From Astropecten irregularis (taxonomy: Eukaryota; Echinodermata; Asteroidea; Paxillosida; Astropectinidae): 64,000 nt of DNA. The stretch lies in NCBI GenBank assembly GCA_963971285.1, contig OZ020264.1:13344431-13408430 (forward strand), read 5' to 3'. The stretch's first letter is position 1. The number at the start of each line of letters is the position of its first letter. The translations under genes were made by a program, and so were the position numbers. Below are positions 2,736-40,200 of this stretch, piece by piece. The notes beneath the pieces were generated by a model. That model had not been told where the DNA came from, did not search any database, and saw nothing but the letters and a program-made list of their open reading frames with translations.

Positions 2736-3142
2736 AAGGGAAAAACAATCCGCAAGGCTCCAACTGACTTTTTATTATGCTCATCGAATATGAAGCCCCT
2801 CGCCCCACGTAAATATTTAACAACTAGAAATGAAACATCAACCCCTCGAATGATAAATTGCTCTCATTTCTTGTTCATAACATGAAATGAATGTTGTCAT
2901 GTACGAAGTACAACAATTGTGTCTGTAGCAATGGGTATTTATTTTTTGCCAGATTTGCAGGTATACATGAAGGGTAGAAGGTCAGATTCTAATATCTATC
3001 TTAGCATAGGGAAGTCGCATTATAAATTAGTTTATTTACATCCATGCACCAATGCACACGAGGGAATACGACATCTTTCCTTGGTCACAATTCATGACAG
3101 TGACGTCCATGATTGTACATAATTATCCTTGGTGTATAACCA
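2736..3142. other. Short spacer, nothing recognised
   Basis: AT-rich sequence between the hAT-like fragment and the left end of the large transposon. No gene, RNA or repeat signal was seen. Confidence 0.4.
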
Positions 3143-3157
3143 CACTGTAAAAAATTT
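3143..3157 (+). repeat. Left terminal inverted repeat of the CACTA-type element
   Basis: CACTGTAAAAAATTT, identical to the reverse complement of the right end at 12,861-12,875. It is also the start of the first subterminal repeat unit. Confidence 0.85.
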
Positions 3158-4115
3158 CTGTTTTTTAACAGAGATTTTGTACTTGTTATTTGCTTTTACA
3201 TGTGTTTCGTTTTATTTTTAATGTTAATTGACATTTTGTCTGTAAATATTCATGTATTTTTACAATCGTTAGTGATTTCACTCATGGTTTGGTTATTTAA
3301 CATAGAAATTGTAAAATTACAGTGAAATTTAACATGACTTTTGTTTTTTTACATAGGCTGTGAAACATCTCAGTTTTTTTACAGAAAATGTGTACTTGTT
3401 TTATGCATTTGCATGTTTTTTGAAATATTTTTTTTTGTTATTTGACATTTATTTGTATATGTTCATGTATTTTTACAATTGATCGTGATTTCACTCATAG
3501 TTTTGTTATTTAACATAGAAATTGTAAAATTACAGTGAACTTAAACATGACTTGTGTTTTTTTACATATGCTGTAACACAATCTTAGTTTTTTTACAGAA
3601 AATGTGTACTTGTTTTTAGCATTTGCATGTTTTTTTGAAATTTGTATTGTTATTTAACATTTATTTGTATATGTTCATGTTTTTTTTTACATTTGTACGT
3701 GTTTTCACAGTCACTTGTGTTATTTAATTTAACAATTGTAAAATTACAGTGAAATTTAACATGACTCGTGTTTTTTTACATAGACTGTAAAATATTTTTT
3801 AAATTTTTTTTTTAAGTGTGAGTTTGTTATTTGCATTTACATGTTTTTAAATTCACGTTCATTGTTATTTGACTTTTATTTTTTAATTATTCATGTATTT
3901 TTACACGTTTGTGTTGATTTCACACACAATATTGTTATTTGATATAGAAATTGTAAAATAACATAGGGTTTTGCTTTTGTACATAGAATGCACAGAAATA
4001 ATTCTTTGTTTTTTTAAGACAATAATGTAGGCCTACTTGTTATTAATTGCTTTTACATGTTTATTGTTATTTCTAATAATTTCATTTACATTGTGTTGTA
4101 AATAGTCATGCACAC
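3143..4115 (+). repeat. Left subterminal tandem array, about 4.5 units of about 212 bp
   Basis: Units start near 3,143, 3,359, 3,571 and 3,785, with a decayed partial unit from about 3,990. Each begins CTGTRAAA or CTGTAAC, then TTTTTTACAGA, TGTACTTGTT, a long T-rich stretch, TTCATGTATTTTTACA, TGATTTCAC and AATTGTAAAATTACAGTGA. The recurrent TGTAAAA / TTTTACA words are candidate transposase-binding sites, as in the subterminal repeats of CACTA elements. Confidence 0.8.
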
Positions 4116-4144
4116 TCATCATGTATGGAGGCTAGGCCCCACAT

Positions 4145-4201
4145 ATTTTCTTTATTTCACACACACTTTTGCGCGTGTGTGTGTGTGAAATAAAGAAAGT
4201 A
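4145..4201. repeat. Inverted repeat with CA/TG core closing the left array
   Basis: CTTTATTTCACACACAC is followed after a short loop by GTGTGTGTGTGAAATAAAG, giving arms of roughly 20 bp. It lies at the inner edge of the left subterminal array and could form a strong hairpin. Function unknown. Confidence 0.7.
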
Positions 4202-5039
4202 TTTAGGGCTTATGGTTTTTACATATGTAAGATTCAAGTAGTAGAGATTGACAGATAGTCGTGAGACTTGGCCAACTTTTTATTTTACCTAAAACCTGTA
4301 TTTTAGCAGTCGGCTTGTTTCGGAGCACGTGAAGGTACAATGCCCTTCATCCAATCAGCAACACGAACTTAACGCGCGCGCGTGATGTTTGTGACATAGC
4401 GCCCAGCAACAACTTGGCCGGCCGTTTACAGCAGTGTAGGCTAGGCGTGTACACGTTGGATCCGTGCATGCACGAGTTTGAGTATATATGTATTGATGAA
4501 CTTGAAGTCGCCATTACGCACTGGCAAGCTGACAAGTCACGATTTGACTGAGGTATGGCACTTTTCATATAGGTTAGGATGTGGCGATAAATGCAATTTT
4601 CTGTTAAAGATTGGACATGAATCTTTTCAAACCACTCGAATATTATGTTTTTTCGTGGGATCGATATGTTGTCATAAAATAATGATGTGACATCATGACA
4701 TAACTTAAGCAGCTAGTGAGACACATGACTGAGTGATCATGCATTCAGGTCCACAGTATCAATTTAGTAAAGTAGGCCTATAGTTGGTACTTGGTAGGTT
4801 TAACGTTATAGGCCGCCTACACTACAGTCAAGTCGAGCCAGTATACGTTTCCCATGCCATATTGTTGCCTTTAACTGAAGTAATTCCCTGTAAAAACGGT
4901 AGGCCCACACAGTAAAAGTACAACAATAATCAGTGATAATCAATACCAGTACTTTACACCCGACATCAATGTATTTACATGCATAACGTTACATATGTAA
5001 ATTGTATGTTGCATACGGTGTATAACGTTAGGCCTCAAC
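4202..5039 (+). promoter_or_regulatory. Probable 5' region of the transposase gene
   Basis: About 840 bp between the left repeats and the transposase start. It contains a GC-rich patch (CGCGCGCGCG near 4,374-4,383, GGCCGGCC near 4,418-4,425) in an otherwise AT-rich element, followed by a TATATATG stretch near 4,484. This is consistent with a promoter but the start site cannot be placed. Confidence 0.35.
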
Positions 5040-7787
5040 ATGTATATTTGTCAGCTCTGTCAATATTCAACATCCTCCTTGAAGGAGTTCACTAATCACC
5101 ACCGTATACACAGAAATGTTCATAATTTCAGATTTTCCTGTGGAGTCCCTGGGTGTTTCTTGTCATTCTCATCCTACTCATCCTTCAACAGTCACGTGAC
5201 ACGCGATCATAGCAAGTATCGAAAAGAAAATCCTTCTCGTTTAAAGCACTCTGAGAACATTGCCGTGAAATGTTCTGTTAGGATTTGTCAGAAACAGTTC
5301 AACAATGTGAGTGATCTTATTAAGGATTTGAAATATCACATTGACTGTGGTATAAAAGTGGAGTGTCCATTTTCGTCTTGCTCACTATCCTTCCATAATA
5401 AATCTTCTTTAGCATCACACATCTCAAGAAATCACAGAGAATGGTCAGTTCAGAGAATCTGTCCCAATTCTCTGGTTGAAAAGTTGGATGCAAGTACAAC
5501 AGGTTTATCAGTCACGAACTTGGAACCTATTGCAGATAATGCAGGGGCATCATCACAATCAGAAAGTGATGAAAACCTAGATCATGATGATTGTGAAATG
5601 AATCATGAACCTGTGGTCACTGTAGACAGTTTTGCTCATAATTTGGCACTTCTGCTATTAAAACTTCAAGCGCAACTTCATGTGCCAGAAAGCACAATCC
5701 AGCTTCTAGTACAAGAACTAGAAAATATGCAAAATTTGGCATTGGAATGCTTAATTTCAAATTTGAAGAAATTGTTGCTAGAAGAAGGACTCCTGGAAAG
5801 TAGTATTTCAAAGGTAATAGAAGAGTTGATTTTGAATGATTGTTGGAAGCAAACATTGGACAGTAGTACAGGTAGTTTAAGGACATGTCACAAGAGGAAG
5901 GTCTATTACCAAACCAATTGTAACTACATAAGCCCCGTTTCTTTGTGTTTGGGTAAGAATGATCAGCAGAAATCAGTTTGTTTCCACTATGTTCCTTTGA
6001 AAGAAACCTTAATATCTCTCATGAACAACCCTTCTGTACAAGCAAATACACAGTCTTTCAGTATCGATAGACCTGTGGACTCCCAGGTAGACATTCTAAG
6101 TGACTTCAAGGATGGAAGCCTCTTTAGGTCAAATGAATTGTTCATGTCATCTGATGACACATTGAAGCTGATACTTTTCCAAGATGCCTTCGAGGTTGTT
6201 AATCCATTGGGATCAAGCAAAAAGAAGCACAAGATTTTGGCAGTGTATGTTTGTCTTGGTAACCTCCATCCACATGTTAGATCATCTGTTAACCAAATCC
6301 AATTAGTTCTTCTAGTAAAGGAGAAGGACTTTAAAACATATGGCCAGGATAAAGTGTTTGGACCATTACTTCGAGACTTGAAGGATATTGAGCAAAACGG
6401 TATACATACAGCATCAGGGACCATGAAAGGGTCACTTGTTGCCATCACAGGGGACAATTTAGGGTCTCACGGAATAGGGGGTTTTTGTGAAAACTTCAGT
6501 ACAAATCAGTACTTTTGCCGATACTGCCACATTACCCTGAATGAGTTTCACTCTGGAAATGGCTTCGAAGTTGGCGAAGAAAGGACCAAAGACAAGTATG
6601 ATAATGTGGTTGAACACCTTGAACAAAATCCTGAATTGAGGAGTCATATGGGAATCAAATTTCAATCAGTTTTCAATACACTGAACTACTATCATGTCTG
6701 CTCCCCTGGACTTCCTCCCTGTTTAGGCCATGATGTGTTTGAAGGGGTGGTCACATATGACCTAGCTTTGTACTTGAAGTACTTTGTGAAAACCAAATGT
6801 TGGTTTACATATGAGATGCTCAACAAGAAAATAAGGAGTTTTGAGTGCTTTGGTAGTGATGCCAGTAACAAGCCACCTGAAGTGCGTGAAAATGGGACAA
6901 GTCTTGGTGGGCATGCCATTCAGAATTGGTGTTTGTTAAGGATCCTGCCACTGATAATAGGTGACAAAATCAAAACAACATGTGATCCTGTATGGCAGTT
7001 GTGCTTACAACTCAGAGAGATTGTTGAGCTTGTGTGTTCTCCAAACATATCAACAGAACAAGTAGCTTATTTGAACGTTGTTGTACATGAGTATCTGGAA
7101 GAGAGGAAGGTTACATTCAGTGAATGTAGACTTCGTCCTAAACACCACTACATGGCTCACTATGCTGAGATGATACTGAAGTTTGGTCCCTTAATGAGAA
7201 TGTGGACGATGAGGTTCGAGAGTAAGCACTCTTATTTTAAGAAGTGCTTACAGCATTGCCAGAACTTCAAAAACATCACAAAGACACTTAGTGAAAGACA
7301 TCAGCAGCTTCAGGCATACATGGGAAGTGGTTCATTGCTCTCAGCTACAATGAGTTATGACAAAGCAATTCCTTTTCACCCCACCCTGTACTCAGCAGAG
7401 ATTGTAGGTTCCCTCAATAGGTTTGGATTGAATTCTCAAAATTCTGTAGTTTGTGACAAAGTCACCTTTAAGGGAATAGACTTTAAGAGAGGGCTATTAG
7501 TAGTAGTCGATTCATGTAACCCTAACATCACATTTGGCTGCATACAGATGATGGTAATTAAATCTGGCTTGTCTCTGTACATTGTTGTACGACTGTGTGA
7601 AGGTAGCTTTGAGACACATCTTGGTGTTTATAGTATACCTGGCCATGACGATTGTAGTGAAGCACCTGGTCAAGTGTCATGTATTGCAGTCAATGAACTT
7701 CTTGATTTGTTTCCACTTCCTGCATACCATATTGGAAGACAATGTCTTATTCCACTAAAGCATAGATTTCCAAAGAAGGAAACATAA
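5040..7787 (+). CDS. CACTA-type transposase with N-terminal C2H2-type zinc fingers, 915 aa
   Basis: A single uninterrupted 915-codon frame. Residues 1-135 hold C2H2-type fingers: C-x2-C-x12-H-x3-H at the start, then two C-x4-C-x12-H-x4-H fingers and one degenerate copy. An acidic/serine linker follows. The C-terminal two thirds looks like the RNase-H-like transposase of EnSpm/CACTA (TNP2-like) elements. Candidate catalytic residues are D382 (LFQDAFEVVNP), D472 (ITGDNLGSHGIGGF) and E727 (MRFESKHSYFKK). Other family signatures are CRYC near 495, LPPCLGHDVFEGVV near 560-572 and RPKHHYMAHY near 700-710. It would bind element ends and catalyse excision and integration in the nucleus. No intron is evident. 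The SAM-like gene starts 146 bp downstream on the same strand. The D/D/E assignment is by analogy, not alignment. Confidence 0.85.
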   Translation: MYICQLCQYSTSSLKEFTNHHRIHRNVHNFRFSCGVPGCFLSFSSYSSFNSHVTRDHSKYRKENPSRLKHSENIAVKCSVRICQKQFNNVSDLIKDLKYHIDCGIKVECPFSSCSLSFHNKSSLASHISRNHREWSVQRICPNSLVEKLDASTTGLSVTNLEPIADNAGASSQSESDENLDHDDCEMNHEPVVTVDSFAHNLALLLLKLQAQLHVPESTIQLLVQELENMQNLALECLISNLKKLLLEEGLLESSISKVIEELILNDCWKQTLDSSTGSLRTCHKRKVYYQTNCNYISPVSLCLGKNDQQKSVCFHYVPLKETLISLMNNPSVQANTQSFSIDRPVDSQVDILSDFKDGSLFRSNELFMSSDDTLKLILFQDAFEVVNPLGSSKKKHKILAVYVCLGNLHPHVRSSVNQIQLVLLVKEKDFKTYGQDKVFGPLLRDLKDIEQNGIHTASGTMKGSLVAITGDNLGSHGIGGFCENFSTNQYFCRYCHITLNEFHSGNGFEVGEERTKDKYDNVVEHLEQNPELRSHMGIKFQSVFNTLNYYHVCSPGLPPCLGHDVFEGVVTYDLALYLKYFVKTKCWFTYEMLNKKIRSFECFGSDASNKPPEVRENGTSLGGHAIQNWCLLRILPLIIGDKIKTTCDPVWQLCLQLREIVELVCSPNISTEQVAYLNVVVHEYLEERKVTFSECRLRPKHHYMAHYAEMILKFGPLMRMWTMRFESKHSYFKKCLQHCQNFKNITKTLSERHQQLQAYMGSGSLLSATMSYDKAIPFHPTLYSAEIVGSLNRFGLNSQNSVVCDKVTFKGIDFKRGLLVVVDSCNPNITFGCIQMMVIKSGLSLYIVVRLCEGSFETHLGVYSIPGHDDCSEAPGQVSCIAVNELLDLFPLPAYHIGRQCLIPLKHRFPKKET

Positions 7788-7933
7788 CATGCATCAAATT
7801 CAGTTCTAACATACAAATGTGAATCTGGCTTAGGTTACTACAAAATTGAAGATGGAGGCTCTATGTCCTACATAAATTTCATGTTGAAAGTGCTTAACTG
7901 CAGTTAAATTGCTTCTTTATCAGTTTTGCTAAA

Positions 7934-10900
7934 ATGGCGAGCAGCGATGAAAGTAATCAAACTGTGACTCTCAGTCCACTCTCCGAGTTCATATCCAAGT
8001 CATTACCACGGCTCTCGAAATGGGAAGTCAACCAGATAATGGAGAGGGCTCTAGAGATCGGTGTCGACCACCCCTCAGACTTTCAATATGTGAAGGAGGA
8101 AGACTTCCAAGACCTAAATCTGAGGCCTATCCACATGAGGAAGCTACTCAATGCTGCCAGCACACATGATAGAGGTAAATGAACTCTATACCAGAAACAC
8201 AGACATAGATTTGGCTGCAGCCATTCTACCACCCTGTTGAAATCTCATTACTCAAATGTGTATTTACTTATTGAAGTATTGATTGTTTTAACAAACCAAT
8301 ATCATTGTTGTAAGGCTGACTATCGGCATGTATTTTTTTGTGTACTTTTTTTTTTTTTACTGTATAGATCACAGATTTTTCAAAATGTTTCATACTTATT
8401 GGTACATGAAAGGAAGGTATTTGTTACAAAGTCATTATTCATCACTTTATACCTTTGATGAGCGTGTGTGAGAATTTTGCAAAACATTATATCCACACCC
8501 TACAAAGTCATATTCAGAACTGCTTATGTATGCTGACCTACTATTTTTTAGAGCTCAAAATGTACTCCAGAGGCTGTGCAAGTCTGTTTTTTTTTTCAAC
8601 TCTTATGTGTGCATGTTTGTGACTATTATTTTGAATGTCACAAGTTAAGGAATTTTCCTTTGGATTTTTGTATGATTTTAACTTATTTTTATCTGTTCTA
8701 CTAATGATTTTTTTTTTCATGAATTTGTTTATCTTTATAGAAAGTACCCTTGATATGTCACCAGTCTCCTCTGCATCACCTCCTTCATCCTTGGATACTT
8801 CAGTAGGTTCTGTGGGTTCTCCAACTGACTGGACAAGCAGTTTCTGCATCCCATGGGATAAGATGCCTACACCTCTCAAAGCAGATCTCAAACGCAAAGA
8901 ACGGCCATTGCCATCAAAGCGAAGACAGATGGTGAGAGTTATAGTGGATGAAATTCTAGCTCAGTGTAACAAACCAGGAAGGAAGGCCTTATCTTTAATT
9001 GCCTCCAAGATCGTGAATGAATACCCTGAATCATTTCAAGACAAACTAGGAGACAACAGGATAGGCCGTGGATATGATTCGCTCCTTGCCCAATTTGAGA
9101 CCAGGATTTCAAATATTAATCGACTAAAACCTAAAAAACATGTTCATGACTCAGAATCTGATGACAGCAGTACTAGTGGTCCCCCAAAAAAGATACATGT
9201 GCCTGCATGTAGCTATGGTACAAAGGACTGGCAGCCAATGTTGCCTCCGAGTGAAGATCCTTCCACCCAAAAAGAGAAAAAAGAAATATTGCTTGACTTG
9301 CATGCCAGAGAGGTATGGGATACTGCACAAATAGGACAACTCATGAATGACACATATCCAACTGTAAGGGCCATTATAAATTCAGCTGAGAAATCGATTG
9401 CTTCCATGACAACTGAGTGGCCTTTCCTCTTTGAAGAAGTTAGTATGCTGCAACATTTTGAGCGTTTGGTTGGAATCCCTTTGAAGGAGACACTTCTCCA
9501 TGCTTTTGAGTCAAAGGTTCCGAGATTAATCAGATATCTCCAGATGAAGCAGTCTTCCAAGTCTGCACTGAGGAAGTCGATGAAAGCTCTGGACACTGTC
9601 AAGAGAGAAATGCAAAGCAACGAGGCGGAAGTCCTTGGGATCCTCTTCCTTCTTGCTAGCTACTTCGGAGAAGATGCCAAAGCTCTTGTTCACACTTCAG
9701 ATGTAAGTCAGCACATGCATTTGACCAGTGTTTTTCATTATTCATCTTTTTTAAATTCCAGTTTTTCTTTTGCAGTTTGTGTGCTCCTGCTCATAAAAAT
9801 ACCACACCTCTATAAAACTCTAAAACAAATGTGGTTATTTATATCAGCACATATAATTAGCATGTGCACCTACTACATCCAATTTCCCTAAAATTACAGA
9901 GATGAGATGCCTGGTGCAATGCAAAACTCCATTTGAACATATGACAATTTAAGTAATTGATATTGCTTATTGATATTTCTAAGGTTTAGTAAAAGTGAAT
10001 AGGGTATACAAGATTCAAAAGAGATGTAATGTTTGTTAACAAGCTGTATGTTTTATACTATTTGTAACAACAGGAAAGCTCCAGTACATCTGTGGAATCT
10101 GATGAAGATGGACACCCGAACCTTCAAATACCACTCACACCCTGCATAATAGCTTGCGGTAAGGAAATTAGTGGCAGGCCAAGGGCCAATTTCACTAATG
10201 CTTTGCGATCATCGCTAAAGCACAAAGCCATCGCTAATCAGAAAACCGATTGCTACTTTGCGTTTAGCAATGGATTTGGGTTGTAGCAATGATCGCAAAG
10301 TGTTAGTAAAATCGTGCCCCCCCCCCTCCTTTTCTTCAGCTCAGTATGGCAGAGGATCGTAATAAGGTCTTGTGTTGTGACATTTAAAACTTTTTGAGTG
10401 TCACTTCAACTAGGCTTGAAAGTTTGCTGAGCCATCTCTCTTCATTTTCATATATATTAACTTCCCCAATTTTATGGAACAATGCAGTGTGGCTATTACA
10501 TTTTCAAATCATTGATGGAACCTATGTGAATTGAATGTAACACATAGTGAAATTTGTATACAAATGCTAGGCCCCATGTTGCTTTTATTCAACTTGGTGT
10601 TACAGTGAGACCATTGAAGTGAAAAAAATAAATTGTCTCTTAAAATTGGCGCTAGCAAAAATATTTCAGGGATGTTATTGAGAAGAAAATTGCCTTTCAA
10701 TTTTTCAAACAGGTTCATCGGCTCTTACAGCTCATAATTTCAAGCTGGCCATTGATCAAGTGGTGGTACAGAAATCCATCTCCTCTCCTATGCAAGCTCT
10801 CTGCATGATGTTTGCTGCATTCTTTAATTTCAACGTGCAGTATCCTGCAGAGGCCCAAGCAACACTTGAGCTGTTACAACGGTGTGTACAATATCCATGG

Positions 10901-11552
10901 CTTATGTTATTACTTATTTATTTTATGATATCACAATTTGTGACTTGTTGTTAGCATGCATACTCCATTATGCGCATTCCCCATCATCCTGCCATTAATT
11001 AATTGAATCTCATTATTCTATGTTGGAGACCTGCCCACAGGCAGAATTCCCACCACACCAAATAATATATGGAGTCATGAAAACCTCTGGGCCATTTGAT
11101 GGTAGGTTTGCATGTACAGGGCAAGTGTTCATTTGGCCTTTTGAATTACTAAAAAGGTTTATTCATAACAAACATTGAAACCATTGCAGGTTTTGGGAGC
11201 CAGATCTTGAAACGATGGTACTGTGCCAAATGTTTTTGAAACCTCAGTCAAAGATCCCTCTGTACAAATTGTCAACATGTTAATAGAAACTCTATTTTTT
11301 CCCACAGTTCTTTTGCCAACATTGATGGATCATGATTGCAACCTCTAATTTGTCTATTGTTTTTGCTGCAATTTGTTTGAGCATTTACGTAATATATTCT
11401 TGCATTTCCCCTGCAGGTGCCTGTTGGGAATCAATCCAGAAAAGGGCAGCAAGGCAAAATCTGATCCTGGACGAAAGGTTACCTGCACAAATACAAAGGT
11501 ACTGGCTCTTGTCAACGGAGTGAAGGATTTTGAGTCTGATTGGTCATTCTGA
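7934..11552 (+). CDS. SAMD3-like accessory protein of the transposon, five exons, 530 aa
   Basis: Exons 7934-8174, 8741-9702, 10074-10158, 10713-10881 and 11417-11552 join in phase with GT-AG borders to a 530-residue frame ending DFESDWSF-stop. The start ATG is in context aaaATGGCG. Residues about 10-75 resemble a SAM domain (VKEEDFQDLNLRPIHMRKLL). A Ser/Pro linker and IPWDKMP follow, then a conserved block about 130-190 (RRQMVRVIVDEIL, YPESFQD, GRGYDSL) that I recognise from the multicopy 'SAMD3-like' proteins of fish and invertebrates. The C-terminal part is helical, ending KVLALVNG. No catalytic motif is visible. It lies inside the transposon, 146 bp after the transposase on the same strand, so I infer an accessory role (for example end-binding or assembly), comparable to the second protein of plant CACTA elements. 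The gene model is well supported; the function is not. Confidence 0.8.
10176..10318. repeat. Foldback (MITE-like) insertion in intron 3 of the SAMD3-like gene
   Basis: CACTAATGCTTTGCGATCAT near 10,194 pairs imperfectly with ATGATCGCAAAGTGTTAGT near 10,290. The outer parts (GGGCCAATTT and AAATCGTGCCC) also pair. It is a short non-coding inverted repeat nested in the transposon. Confidence 0.6.
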
Positions 11553-11654
11553 GATTTAGAAGTGGTGCTCACCGAGTCTTGATGCATAGGGCATTTAACC
11601 ATATTGTTTGTATAATATAAGTATAATATAACTTGATAGGGGGATGTTTAACAA

Positions 11655-12235
11655 CAGTGTTTTATTTGCTTCTAACACCAAGTGGGTGTTTACTCAGTAT
11701 GAATATGATATTACTTGATGTATTTTATTTATTTTTTTTGGGGGGGGGTGTTAAACAAACAACAGTGTTTTATTTGCTTCAACACCAAGTGGGTGTTTAC
11801 TCAGTATGAATATTATATTACTTGATGTATTTGGGGGGGGGGGTGTTCAACAAACAACAGTGTTTTATTTGCTTCTAACACCAAGTGGGTGTTTACTCAG
11901 TATGAATATTATATTACTTGATGTATTTGGGGGGGGGGTTGTTAAACAAACAACAGTGTTTTATTTGCTTCTAACACCAAATGGGTGTTTACTCAATATG
12001 AATATTATATTACTTGATGTATTTGGGGGGGGGGGGGTTGTTAAACAAACAACAGTGCTTTATTTGCTTCTAACACCAAGTGATGGTTTACTCAGTATGA
12101 ATATTATATTACTTGATGTATTTTTGTTTTTTTGGGGGGTGTTAAACAAACAACAGTGTTTTATTTGCTTCAACACCAAGTGGGTGTTCACTCAGTATGA
12201 GTATGATATTACTTGATGTATTTTGTTGGAGGGGG
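11655..12235 (+). repeat. Right-side tandem array, about 6 units of 95-108 bp
   Basis: Units begin with CAGTGTTTTATTTGCTTC at 11,655, 11,763, 11,858, 11,954, 12,053 (CAGTGCTTT) and 12,154. Each carries AACACCAAGTGGGTGTTTAC (a short inverted repeat, AACACC/GGTGTT), then ATTACTTGATGTATTT, a poly-G run of varying length, and GTTAAACAAACAA. It lies downstream of the SAMD3-like stop codon and differs in sequence from the left array. Confidence 0.85.
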
Positions 12236-12860
12236 GTAACAAGCATTTTGCTGTTATTTGTTTTGAACACCAATTGGTGTGATTGTTGTGTGTTTCTTTA
12301 TTAAATGAAAGGTCTTTCACATTGAAAAGCAACGTGTCATGCAGTGAATCTTTTGTACACCTTTGACAACCTGAGATTCAGCTCAGTGAAACATTTAACA
12401 GCATGAAATGTAAAAAAGTGTAAAATTACGCTATTCGTATCAATTTTACATTCTTTACATTAACTGACAATTTATTAAACAAATAAAAGGTTTAAATGTT
12501 TTCAAAAGAAACAAGATTGTAAAAATACAGAAAAATATTTTTTTAAATACTGTCTTTTTTTCAATATAGATAAATCTGTATAAGCAAAAAAATGAAATTA
12601 ATAAAATGATCAAAAGTTCTGTATTTTGAAAAAATCGGTGCAGTTTGTGAACACAAAAAACAAACCATCAATTATTTCCATTAAAATATTTTGCGGTATT
12701 TTGCGAAAACAAGCTGATCTGTAGATAAGGATAACAACCATTTTATGTCTTTGAAGAAAACATCCGGTCTGTAAAAATACTTTACAAACGAACTGTTAAG
12801 TAAAATAATGAGGGGTTCTGGCAACTCAGTTGCCGGCACTTTTTCTGTAAATTTACAGAA
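12236..12860. other. Right subterminal region of the transposon
   Basis: AT-rich, with scattered TGTAAAAAT / TTTTTACA-type words (near 12,410, 12,520 and 12,771) that echo the left-end units in inverted orientation, and an AATAAA at 12,482 that could serve as the polyadenylation signal of the SAMD3-like gene. Confidence 0.5.
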
Positions 12861-12875
12861 AAATTTTTTACAGTG
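12861..12875 (-). repeat. Right terminal inverted repeat of the CACTA-type element
   Basis: AAATTTTTTACAGTG, the perfect reverse complement of the left 15 bases. Just inside it, CTGTAAATTTACAG is a self-complementary word. Confidence 0.85.
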
Positions 12876-13107
12876 CACACAACATAAGTCAGTCCCCCAA
12901 ATACATGCCACGACTAGCACCAGAGATGCCACCATGCAGTATTTCATGAAAAAAACTGAAACACCTTTACCCGGCCCAGAAAAGCCTGAAACTACCCTTA
13001 TCCCCTTTCAAAAAATGTGTTTCCTGGATGTTTCAGACAAAATCAAGTACCATATTAAATTTGTAAAATTTCTGAGCACAAAAACCCCTGAATTCAGGCT
13101 AAAACCT

Positions 13108-34200: not shown

Positions 34201-37200
34201 TACGATTTTGTAATTATAATTCCGTCCTATTTTTCGTATTTGACTTTTTCAGAACATTGCCTATTTTGATTTGGTGAGCTACATCCCTCGTTCTGCATCG
34301 ATATCGGAACCTGATGAAGATGTCGCAACGCCATCCAATGACAGCGGAGCTACGACACCAGGTACCCCAGCAACCCTCCCAGACACTGATGGTAACTCTT
34401 CCATCGCAAGCTCGGATGCTTTCTCCCCTATGGATGATTCTCCTCAAACAGCCGTGAAGATTCTAGACGTAAAGAGCAAACCGTTCAAGCTTGAGAAGCA
34501 GCACTCCTTGCCTCAGCATTACTCTGAAATAGACAAGTCTAACCTTGACTCTACGACCGAAACCAAATCCCAAGGAGATGGCGATGAACTAGCTGGGGTT
34601 CAGAAGCCGAGGTCTTTTAGTTCTGGTAGGATTCTTGATGCCAAGCCGGCAAGACCTGCTTCCCTTGGTGTTCCTTCTCGCAACGAGAACATCCTAGATG
34701 CCTCTCAGAAGTCTGTCGAGGACAGTATCAACGATGGAAGTCTTGAGGTTATCCGCGTGCGGACCAGGAAAGCCAAGAAAGGACACAAGAAGAAGAAGAA
34801 AGGGGAGAGGTCCTCCATCAACGGCGACAAAATGACGAGGACCGGCAGCTCAGGGACTCTGAGCTCACTGTGTGACGATGTTGAGTCGTCTAGTCCAAGA
34901 CTGGAAGCACCAGCTGCTGATACCATATCCAAGAGTAGCTCTCACTCTTCCCTTCATAGTTTCTCCGACCGTGGATCTCTGAATGAAGCTCCTAGCTTAG
35001 GAAAATCTGATGCAGACAGCCTGAATTGCATGGACATGATGAACGACAAAAGTCTGGAGAAGGTGAAGGTTGATGAAACTGATGCTGCACCAGCGATGCC
35101 AGAACTTATACAAAACATCGACGAGGAAACTGCAGCATCACTAGATGTAACGGAAACAGGAGACATGAACCAATCAAAGGAACCAAGCCTTATATCTAAT
35201 GACTTGCATCTAGAATCAGAATCATGTAACAAGGACCACAATCTATCAATCAGTGAGAATCTTGCCGAGCATCAACCTGAAATAGTCTGTACTGATGTCA
35301 AGCCCAGTCGAGGCTCGGCATCAAGATCTAGTCTCAATTTTGAGGAAACAGAGACAATGACGCTTATAACTCCAAGGCCCAAAGACCCTGCTCTAGATGA
35401 CGCTCAATTGACCGTAGCTCAGCCAAACCAGTCATCGTCTGAAAGTTTCCTCAACCAGAGTCTATCAGATGATCACAATAACTCCTTATCTTCCTATCCA
35501 TCGGAGACGGTACCGAGTTTTGCCGATCTCTTCACTGGGACCATGCCGCAGATTTCGGACGAGCACCCTTTGCCATCTCCTAGTTCGTCATCCTATTCCA
35601 CGTCAGACATCTCGGCCAATCCTAGCGAGGAAGGCCTGACAAAGTCCAATGGAAGGAACAGTAGAAGCATCAGGACATCATCAGATGCAAGCTCCTCCTT
35701 CAAGGAATCCACAGAAGGGGATGACAGCATCAGCGATGTTGCCAAGGAGACGGTTGCTAGGGACAGTCTGAATGCAGGAGAGGAAACTCATGATGCAGAA
35801 ATCAAGTGAGTATTTTGAGAATGCACAGAGTCTACCAAACTTTCATATTTCTGAACAAGATGAAGTTGATTAAATTCATGCCAATATGAAAATAATGATA
35901 ACATGTTCTATCTTTTGATACTCGGTGTGCGTTTTATTATTATCCCTGGTCATCGGGCTACGTTTGCATTCCTGAAATCATCTTGATGCCCTTCGAGAAT
36001 GCATCTCAAGTATACAGCCCCGGCCATTGTAAAGCACACAGGCTAATCAAACCACAAAGCCATCTCTACCCTCACAGGTACCCTGGGTGAAGAGAAGCAA
36101 TATGTGACAAAGCATCTTGCCCAAGGACACAAGCACTAACCCATGGCTGGATTCGAACTAACAATTGACCAAAAGACCTTGAGTACGACGCATCGGAGCA
36201 CTATAGGCCACAGCACCCCACACAAATGACCTTTCATTTCTTTTTGTCCATAATCTGCATGATTTGTGATCCGTGCGCCACCATGAGGGAGCGCTAGAGA
36301 GGTGCCAATGAGTTGGATGTTACCATGATGGTCAATAGATTGACTGTATTAAACTTCTTGGGTTACTACACATTGCTTTATCTCTTTGCAGAGTTGATAA
36401 CAATCTCAAGTTGTACCTGATGCTAGAGATCTTCAGCAGTGAAGAAGAACAATTCAAAAAGGTATCGTCATCAATTTTTTAAATCATCCAAATCATTTAG
36501 TTTGATACTTATTGCTAGTAAAAAAATCGCTTATTTCTCACTCAGTGTTGAAATTGACAGTGCGTGCCCCTAATCTGCTAGTCATTTGTAATTACAACCA
36601 CATTATGGCCATGCCTCTTATCCACTCACCTTTGACCTTTGACCTTACTCTGACCTATACATGTACCTTTCTGCAGTTGATCCGTATGAGCACCGGTCAC
36701 ATGGAAGGTGACCTCCAGCCAGTCTTTATCCTGCTGACCGATCGTACGTTATATATACTGAGACGAGGGGACAAGCGCGGTCATTTCTCCACACAGCAGA
36801 AACTGCCGTACAATTCACTGGACTATATCTCGGTAAGTAACTTATCTATTCAAGCATCGAAAATGGAAAAATTATACAAATAATGATTAATCAACAAAAA
36901 AGTGTACAAAAACGCCTGGATATTGGATCTTATATCCCAGACTGTTGCCATGGAGATTTATTAATAACTGACCAATCATCTGCACAGGTTGGTTTGAACT
37001 ACCAGACAATCCAGATTGTTTGCACCAATAGGAGGAAGCAGTTTTGGCTGACCACTGGAGACGAAACTCAAACAAGGTAAACATTCTACAAATAAACAAA
37101 CAAACAAACATATAAACAAACACTGTACTATAAAAGCCACATCCTCTTTGAGTGATCCCTGTGTACCATTTCTCAGGTTGCAGCATTGGTAACGCTGCAC

Positions 37201-40200
37201 GTATCTTCAATGATCCTTGGGATATAGCAGTATGTGAGCAGTTTCATGGCTTCTGATTGCCAACCGAACAAAGATAGGGACACCACCAACATAGGACTGA
37301 ATAGCTCAGTTGGTAGAGCACCTGTATGGTTCGAATCCTGCTCCAGTCAATTTTTCTTTGTTCACCTTTCAAAGATAATTGACTATTAGGGACGCACTGA
37401 TATAGAGTTGGATGGCTCAGTTGGTAAGAGCACCAGTACGGTATGCAGGAGGTTGCTGGTTCGAATCCCACTCCACTTTTCAGTGAAAAAGAGACTGTCA
37501 CGCTTTACACCAAATCTTAAAGCTAGTCCTAGTGTCCTAGTCTCTCCAAGGAAGTAAGTTGCTGTTTTTGGCTAGCCCATCTATTCTAACCCCAATCTGC
37601 TGGCTGGTCCTGACAGCAAGATTGCATGTTAACCCTCTTAGAGAGTAATGATGTCATCTGTAAATTGGTTTGTCAAACATTTGTGTGCTAAGACATCATC
37701 TACGAGTGGTTAATTAACTATACCTATCTTTCTAAAAACTGTTGTCGTCAGTGAAGGGAATAATATTAAATCTCTTACTCTGGTTTTCATTGATTGCTGC
37801 AGGTTTTTTCTGTGCTCGCTGCGACGCATCATGAATGAATGTCAACAAATTAACGAACCTGTCAGCATTTTGACTGATGCTACAGCTCAAGTGATAACGC
37901 TAAGAAAGTGGGCCGCTCAGGAAAGCAAGATGGAGGTATGTCTCAAAGACTAGCTTAGAGTTGGGAGGGCCTGACGTTTCAATCCTAATAGGATCTTTCT
38001 CAAAGACTAGCTTAGAGTTAGGAGTAATAGTAAAATATAGTAAAAAATTTAGTAAAATAGAAATTATCAAAAAATTTTGTTTTACTATAATTAATATCCC
38101 CATACTTAGACAAAGACAAGAACTGCATTGAGAGCCACTGTTAAACTCATCTTTTCATCTTGTTCAAATCTCTTCTTTGTTTTCTTTTCTCAACAGACAC
38201 ATGACGTCAAACTTCAGCTGTACTCCCTCGTCCACTGGGAGGACCTGACCGACCTGACAATGACCCCTGACCTCCAGCTCTATGAACCCCAGGTCATCAG
38301 GAAAGGTCACCTCTACTATAAGGTCGCTGGGAGCTTCCTGTTGGGCAGTTCCTGGAAGAAGGCGTGGTTTGTCCTGAGGAATGAGATGTTCTGTCGGTTT
38401 ATTCAGAGGAGCGATCAGCAGCCTGATCTCAGTGTCCAATTAAGGTAAGATGAATCCAATCATCAAGCATGGTCTTTGTCACCTCAAGGGCCTTTCTCAA
38501 AGCTCGGCTCTGGCTCCGGCTTCGTCTCTGTCATCCATATGCTGAACCAGAGAATCAACTTCCAAACCACAGCCAAAAGCCTCTATTTTGATACCTGTAA
38601 TTTTAGAATGGATTTCAGAAATGGAGACGGAGCCAGAGCCGGAGCCGGAGCCGAGCTTTGAGAAAGGCTCCACAACTGACAATACAGGTTGTGCTCTTTG
38701 ATTAACATTGGAGCTCCATTTCTGAGAGAAATATTTGTCTCTTATTTTTTATACTACATGTTACTTACAAATGAAATTACAAATTGAGTTGCTTCAATAA
38801 GATATTTGGCCAAGGTGTGCAAAACAGCCAGAAGGTGATTCAAAAGGGGACAAGCAGAATAGACTGGTCCCTTGTGCCCTGAACTGTGCATATTCACACG
38901 TGTGTATACGGGAAACATGACATGAGATGGCTAAGGGTATGGCATCATTATCTTACAGGATGCCTTACTTTGGCGGCTGCCGACGCGTCCGAAATGGAGA
39001 GCGCCCTCACAGCTTTGAGCTGATTCTGTCGGATGGTGCCTCCCTGGAGCTGTCATGTGACACTGAAGAGAAGGTCTCTGATTGGCTGCAAGCCATCTGC
39101 CAGGTCGTAGCGCAAGCTGTAAGTTTGTAGAAACTTTCAAAGCTTTTCTAGGTTTGCTTAGAGTTAGGAGGACCTGACACGTTTCAATCCTCATCTAGAT
39201 TTCATGGTGAACTTTGTGAATGAGTGGAAAGTTTGCAGGTGTCGTACTAAGATCCTTCGTCCCTTTCAAATTTCCTGAAGTGTCTCAGTATGTAACATAC
39301 TGAGGAACCTAGCCTCCCAAGGGTCATATAAATGGGAACCTTCTCTGTGGAATCTGTTCATTTATTTGGAAAGGGTTGAGTAAATTTTGAATTTTGAACT
39401 TGCTTGCCATTCTGGAGTACATCATTTGCTCTGCATTGACGTTTAACTTTGATGACCAAATGCTTTAACTATGATTACCCCTATTAGCAAGGCCATGCGT
39501 CAATGATATAACAAGCCTACATTCTTTGTCATCATACAGCAAGTTGCAGCTACTAGCCCCACCCATGCCCCGCCCCCCTGCCAGCCATGCTGTGCCGTGA
39601 CCACCTCCCGTAAGCTCCTCCTATGCCACGAAGATTGCCAGACCAACTTCTATCGTCTACTGGCTGGAGTGGACATTACGGACATCACTGGACTGACCAG
39701 TGACCCTGAGGATGGCACCTATGTCATTGTGGTCAGTACCTCCAATTGATTTATCCCTACCTGGTCATTCCCAGCAATGTCCCATTCTAAGGAAATCCAT
39801 TGACTTGTCTTCAAGATACATTTGACTCTGTCTTTGGGTCGATTTCATGAAGCCCTACGATCGATCGTAACTTGAGTTACAGAGGATAACCCATCATATC
39901 CTAGGCTAGAGTGGTTTGGATATGTGCAATGCATGGGCAATGAGAGAACACCCAAACTGCTATACCTATGGAAACCAACTCATGGGAAGGGCAGACATGG
40001 TCGGCCTAAAACTACATGGAGAGATGTCATTCAGAGAGATCTCTCACTCCTAGACACTGGGTGGTCAGTTGAAGATGCATAAGTGGCAGCTCAAGACAGG
40101 TCCATTTGGAAGTTTTTTCTCAAGTCAAGCAGCAAGTGCAGATAATGCATGAAGCTTTCCAGTTAGTTAGTTAGTTAGTCTACTTAGTTATCCTATCCTA

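Follow-up and report, generated by a model that had tools for sequence, protein, structure and literature searches.

An intact CACTA-type transposon, probably still mobile, with a SAM-like partner gene in the genome of Astropecten irregularis

Introduction

Plant CACTA/EnSpm transposons carry repeats of short motifs in their subterminal regions. They have CACT ends and a DDE transposase, normally contain two genes, and generate target-site duplications (TSDs) of 3 bp (PMC4158355), and the maize element Spm requires two interacting proteins, TnpA and TnpD (PMC1636069). Here we analyze a stretch of 64,000 nucleotides from the starfish Astropecten irregularis (contig OZ020264.1, positions 13,344,431 to 13,408,430; hereafter the window), which contains a complete 9.7-kb element resembling these transposons in its CACT ends, its two genes and its DDE transposase; it differs from them in a TSD of 2 bp instead of 3, in C2H2 zinc fingers at the N-terminus of the transposase, and in a second protein with a region resembling the sterile alpha motif (SAM).

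CACTA-related elements of animals were published in 2006 as TRC (SmTRC1 and kin), with a 2-bp TSD demonstrated through empty repeats and with TBLASTN matches in the sea urchin Strongylocentrotus purpuratus (PMC1636069). TRC elements have a Transposase_21-type protein, to which the transposase of the window element probably corresponds, and share with that element the 2-bp TSD, a region of tandem repeats and the presence of further, shorter proteins; however, their terminal inverted repeats start with CCC rather than CACTG, and their shorter proteins arise by alternative splicing, with no mention of a SAM domain in the available part of that paper, whereas the window element has a separate SAM-like gene. 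The lineages ESTA, Plavaka and Mirage of the "CMCT" group, compared here by description, likewise have the C(2)C and H(3-4)H motifs, mostly CA..TG termini, and TSDs of 2 to 5 bp, ESTA and Plavaka being described from fungi (PMC12730594). Another animal transposon that pairs its transposase gene with one for an accessory protein is the RAG1-RAG2 element TransibSU, documented in a starfish, a sea urchin and an oyster; unlike the window element, it has a 5-bp TSD and its accessory protein is RAG2-like (Kelch-PHD) (PMC4411706).

The original prediction for this locus, made by a model from the letters alone, had called complete autonomous animal CACTA elements with a spliced second gene poorly described. 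This was overstated, given the TRC relatives with their 2-bp TSDs (PMC1636069) and the normal two-gene organization of plant CACTA elements (PMC4158355). Animal CACTA elements are already known; the unusual feature is the nature of the second protein, left unidentified by the prediction, and it is the SAM-like partner gene that deserves attention.

Results

In our reading, the window element is an animal DNA transposon that moves autonomously by cut-and-paste, has been mobile recently and belongs to the broad EnSpm/CACTA (CMC) group; the probability of roughly 0.88 given to this reading covers the element and its class and not the job of gene 2. The window copy lies on contig C29 of the 476-Mb genome and ends in a perfect 15-bp inverted repeat starting with CACTG, as in EnSpm/CACTA termini. 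The borders, the ends and both genes are where the prediction had placed them. When the genome was searched with the transposase (best 50 of 138 candidates scored), five near-identical, full-length and stop-free loci were found, on C29 (the window copy), C8, C25, C17 and C1. Searching with the ends gave the same picture: the left 418 bp are complete at five places with 99-100% identity, and the other 15 listed matches belong to the internal array or are incomplete ones on C1 and C30. The right 495 bp are complete in the same five copies with 98-100% identity, next to a sixth complete match on C1 at 92% and five further matches that are all partial. From the end coordinates, the elements measure 9733 bp (window), 11687 bp (C17), 11895 bp (C8), 11686 bp (C25) and 9761 bp (C1). 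The right end of the C8, C25 and C1 copies differs from that of the window copy by one base, and their perfect inverted repeat is therefore 12 bp long.

All five are copies with the same ends, different flanks and intact genes, as expected of an autonomous element. Both genes are open and the GT and AG of all four introns are kept in each of them, in agreement with the predicted pair of unbroken genes with joining splice phases. Compared to the window copy, the divergence of the other copies is 0.33-0.40% in gene 1, 0.68-1.15% in the 5' region and 0.89-1.07% in intron 1 of gene 2, while in gene 2 it is 0-0.83% in exon 1 and 0.38-0.94% in the part of exon 2 that was compared. Pairwise dN/dS, available for the nine of ten copy pairs with dS > 0, ranges from 0.03 to 0.35 in gene 1 and from 0.03 to 0.28 in gene 2, and the C17 and C25 copies differ by one codon in gene 1 and by none in gene 2. 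These small numbers point to copies with working proteins that moved recently, which supports the recent mobility proposed from the intact reading frames; judged from sequence, the window element is probably an intact animal CACTA element that is still mobile.

The exact 15-base end occurs at 16 sites in the genome against nine for the reversed control, and it was rejected as a stand-alone marker of the family. By position, nine of the 16 sites are ends of the window-type element (seven) or of two relatives (two), whereas L001 and L006 bear the 15-mer with different internal sequence and AC outside. In the two relatives (C15:15.79 Mb and C1:12.9 Mb), the exact CACTGTAAAAAATTT lies 1.3-1.5 kb upstream of the transposase with TA outside it; their transposases are 41-43% identical to that of the window and partly broken.

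The 2 bp outside the two ends are identical to each other in all five copies, being TA in four of them and CA in the window copy. The C25 copy is inserted in a dispersed repeat, and when its flanks were joined and used as a query, 38 of the 86 matches listed, from the best 40 of 1318 candidates, crossed the junction. A single TA stands at the junction in all five uninterrupted repeat copies that were examined among these 38, compared with a TA on each side of the inserted element; thus, insertion duplicates 2 bp. The 3-bp TSD of plant CACTA elements was considered as well and fits none of the five copies. Empty sites, one of the checks proposed for this locus, were therefore found for the C25 copy and not for the window's own: part of the right flank of the window copy is itself a dispersed repeat, and of the 41 matches listed for its joined flanks (best 40 of 157 candidates scored) only the two flanks of the copy itself extend to the junction. 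The repeat at the C25 site, also viewed as L077-L081, is about 260 bp long and uninterrupted in at least 38 places.

Arrays had been predicted near both ends and are both present, with the correction that the 214-bp and 96-bp units differ in sequence. Short-motif repeats occupy the subterminal regions of the window element at both ends: the heptamer TTTTACA, which the terminal inverted repeat contains in inverse form, occurs 16 times on both strands in 3143-4000 (mean 2.4 and largest value 8 in 300 dinucleotide shuffles of the region) and six times in 12381-12875 (mean 0.7, largest 4), with zero or one occurrence in each of four control stretches. The right end is AT-rich. The length of the 3' array varies among the otherwise near-identical copies, and its units contain long runs of G.

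Gene 1 probably encodes the transposase. Within a 12-sequence alignment of the family, D382, D472, C496, H703, H707 and E727 are invariant, and C493 is replaced in two sequences (L031 and L036). A C(2)C and H(3-4)H pattern combined with D-D-E has been given for the EnSpm/Mirage/Chapaev/Transib group (Kojima 2025, PMC12730594), and the invariant residues of gene 1 fit it, with D382, D472 and E727 as the putative catalytic triad and with C493-x2-C496 and H703-x3-H707 between the second D and the E, the roles of these residues being assigned from the motif pattern. Pfam gave a C2H2 finger (E = 7e-4, below cut-off), and Transposase_21, likewise below cut-off, is the sole transposase family matched by the window protein. 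Across 12 family members at E <= 0.01, Transposase_21 is matched in three and Plavaka in one (E = 0.002). The proposed profile comparison with EnSpm/CACTA families thus returned CMC-type catalytic motifs together with family scores below cut-off. The element probably belongs to the broad animal EnSpm/CACTA group and not with the plant-type CACTA elements.

Gene 2 has five exons (7934-11552) with four GT-AG introns and encodes 530 aa; the conservation of the reading frame among the copies supports this splice model. Exon 1 resembles SAM domains, while exon 2 and the remainder of the protein gave no credible family match and nothing credible among solved structures. A genome search with exon 2 returned 26 matches. 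Of the 20 transposase matches with at least 36% identity, 19 are followed by a gene 2 match on the same strand at a distance of no more than 8 kb (17 of 18 loci, since the C2 and C3 loci are each split into two rows), and the one exception, L014, has the SAM exon. By comparison, none of the 30 transposase matches with 34% identity or less has gene 2 downstream, although a very diverged gene 2 would be missed; the dividing line between 36% and 34% was chosen after viewing the list. The chance expectation of such a pairing is about 0.0004 per gene 2 match. A SAM-exon profile matched nine of the 14 relative loci in the first group, against zero of 11 in the second, when loci with 1.5 kb of flank were searched and with L014 and L020, two of the nine, included in building the profile.

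In an unrooted tree of 12 transposases, the five members that bear gene 2 make up one side of a branch with support 100/99. In trees of six members, C11 pairs with C3 in both genes (100/100 and 100/99). The window element pairs with C2 when gene 2 is used (99/98) and, with less support, in the gene 1 tree of 12 members (94/98), and the six-member gene 1 tree leaves this pairing open at an unresolved fork (73/73). The histories of the two genes are therefore without conflict, agreement being shown for one pair only. Together, these results strongly support gene 2 as a retained part of the element.

Two open gene 2 homologues, L069 (C18:3193000-3195900, containing a run of 200 N) and L070 (C1:15162100-15163400, viewed in 1.3 kb), have no listed transposase upstream and may be solo genes or domesticated ones. 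The genome also has many other CACTA-type transposases, at 28-34% identity, whose open frames are long and for which no gene 2 was detected; several have equal or near-equal scores on different contigs, a hint of other recently active families. Intron 3 of gene 2 holds a 56-bp inverted repeat (10189-10312; 79% complementary, 12-bp loop) that is possibly a small nested element. The features of the window element are collected in Table 1.

Table 1. Coordinates of the transposon and its parts within the window
Feature	Position	Strand	Evidence
Complete transposon	3143..12875	+	9733 bp; ends common to five full copies, precise junctions
TSD, left copy (CA)	3141..3142	.	CA on both sides in window; TA/TA in four others
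Left terminal inverted repeat CACTGTAAAAAATTT	3143..3157	+	Exact inverse of 12861-12875
5' subterminal array	3145..3963	+	214 bp x 3.8; TTTTACA-rich, both strands
Gene 1, 915-aa C2H2 zinc-finger and DDE-type transposase, intron-free	5040..7787	+	Open in 5/5 copies
Gene 2 exon 1, SAM-like domain	7934..8174	+	SAM_TNK E = 1e-4, below cut-off; kept in relatives
Gene 2 exon 2, conserved region with no credible structure match	8741..9702	+	26 genome matches; alignment
Gene 2 exon 3	10074..10158	+	Splice sites, open frame in copies
Gene 2 exon 4	10713..10881	+	Splice sites, open frame in copies
Gene 2 exon 5 with stop codon	11417..11552	+	Splice sites, open frame in copies
3' array	11740..12223	+	96 bp x 5.0 in window copy; longer in C8 and C25 copies
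3' subterminal region with TTTTACA motifs	12381..12875	+	98-99% identity in four other full copies
Right terminal inverted repeat	12861..12875	-	Exact inverse of 3143-3157
TSD, right copy (CA)	12876..12877	.	CA on both sides in window; TA/TA in four others

Outside the element, a family search gave a match in two of nine reading frames, which correspond to exons of a PLEKHM2-like host gene at 36506-36880 and 38110-38445 (PH_PLEKHM2, E = 1e-19; PH, E = 0.004, below cut-off). The open stretch of 521 aa at 34244-35806 has no family match and is probably part of the same gene. These exons support an animal host.

Discussion

The five intact copies and the genes they carry suggest how the element may work. 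The DDE transposase of gene 1 would recognize the CACTG ends, cut them and join them into TA, and its C2H2 fingers may add DNA contacts. With less certainty, and by analogy, gene 2 could provide a second transposition protein functionally like the TnpA of plants. SAM domains often self-associate, a property that suits a bridging role at repeated sites; the gene 2 protein might assemble through its SAM-like domain and, by putative contacts with DNA, help to hold the subterminal repeats of both ends together.

Several observations weigh against this interpretation of the element and its genes. The Transposase_21 (tnp2) match of the window protein has E = 0.0025 and 17.5 bits against a cut-off of 28.6, and a profile of the gene 1 family compared with solved structures returned zinc fingers and a few others at chance level and no DDE enzyme. 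Similarly, SAM_TNK stays below its cut-off of 25, with 22.7 bits for exon 1 and 19.7 for the whole gene 2 protein. The window copy has CA/CA instead of TA/TA, and a match of 2 bp could be due to chance. The compared part of exon 2 is hardly less divergent than non-coding DNA, so that the signal for gene 2 consists of an excess of silent changes, and the dN/dS ratios are built on few changes in copy pairs that share history and are not independent. Finally, for seven of the 26 gene 2 matches no transposase is listed upstream: one on C18, the match at C1:15162299, three matches on C11, and a pair of pieces on C1 that lie about 5 kb from the diverged C1 right end.

The alternative that survives best, although we consider it somewhat unlikely, accepts the same transposon and makes gene 2 dispensable for movement, as a regulator, as an anti-silencing factor, or as an inherited passenger that stems from a single capture of a host gene. 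In the profile and structure comparisons gene 2 credibly matched no DNA-binding family, and the more distant transposases of this genome have no detectable gene 2; therefore, CACTA-type movement without it seems possible. Nevertheless, within one clade gene 2 persists, with order and strand unchanged, as far as about 40% transposase identity, and its dN/dS is low among the copies, while a useless passenger would be expected to decay.

A different doubt concerns classification. The element could represent a lineage distinct from EnSpm/CACTA proper and akin to Mirage, ESTA or Plavaka, an option favored by the duplication of TA rather than 3 bp, by the weak Transposase_21 score and by the one family member that matches Plavaka, as well as by the splitting of such lineages within "CMCT" (Kojima 2025, PMC12730594). 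We regard it as quite improbable, because the ends are CACTG, because the window protein matches no transposase family other than Transposase_21, and because the animal TRC relatives of CACTA likewise have 2-bp TSDs (PMC1636069). That the copies are old and were kept by segmental duplication or domestication, and not by recent transposition, is exceedingly improbable, with nothing observed in its favor: they lie on five different contigs with different flanks, each with the same 2 bp outside both of its ends, and empty repeat sites exist for the C25 copy.

We thus retain the interpretation as a recently mobile member of the broad EnSpm/CACTA group, an intact and probably still mobile animal CACTA element whose ends are defined, whose target duplication is demonstrated and whose partner protein has been retained in evolution. 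Searches of the open-access literature found no SAM protein described for CACTA/EnSpm elements, although Repbase may hold a description. The element makes it testable whether animal CACTA transposons depend on a second protein in the way that maize Spm depends on TnpA, and whether the bridge can be a SAM domain; it is also a possible source of SAM-domain host genes. As a lead only, genes for "sterile alpha motif domain-containing protein 3-like" products in vertebrates have a SAM domain and probably a similar C-terminal end. A tentative and on balance unlikely extension is that a clade of animal CACTA elements uses a two-protein machine, in which a SAM protein unrelated to TnpA gathers on the subterminal repeats and bridges the ends, and that the SAMD3-like genes are domesticated copies of its gene. 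If this were true, the SAMD3-like genes of animals would derive from a transposon gene, in parallel to the origin of RAG2 from Transib.

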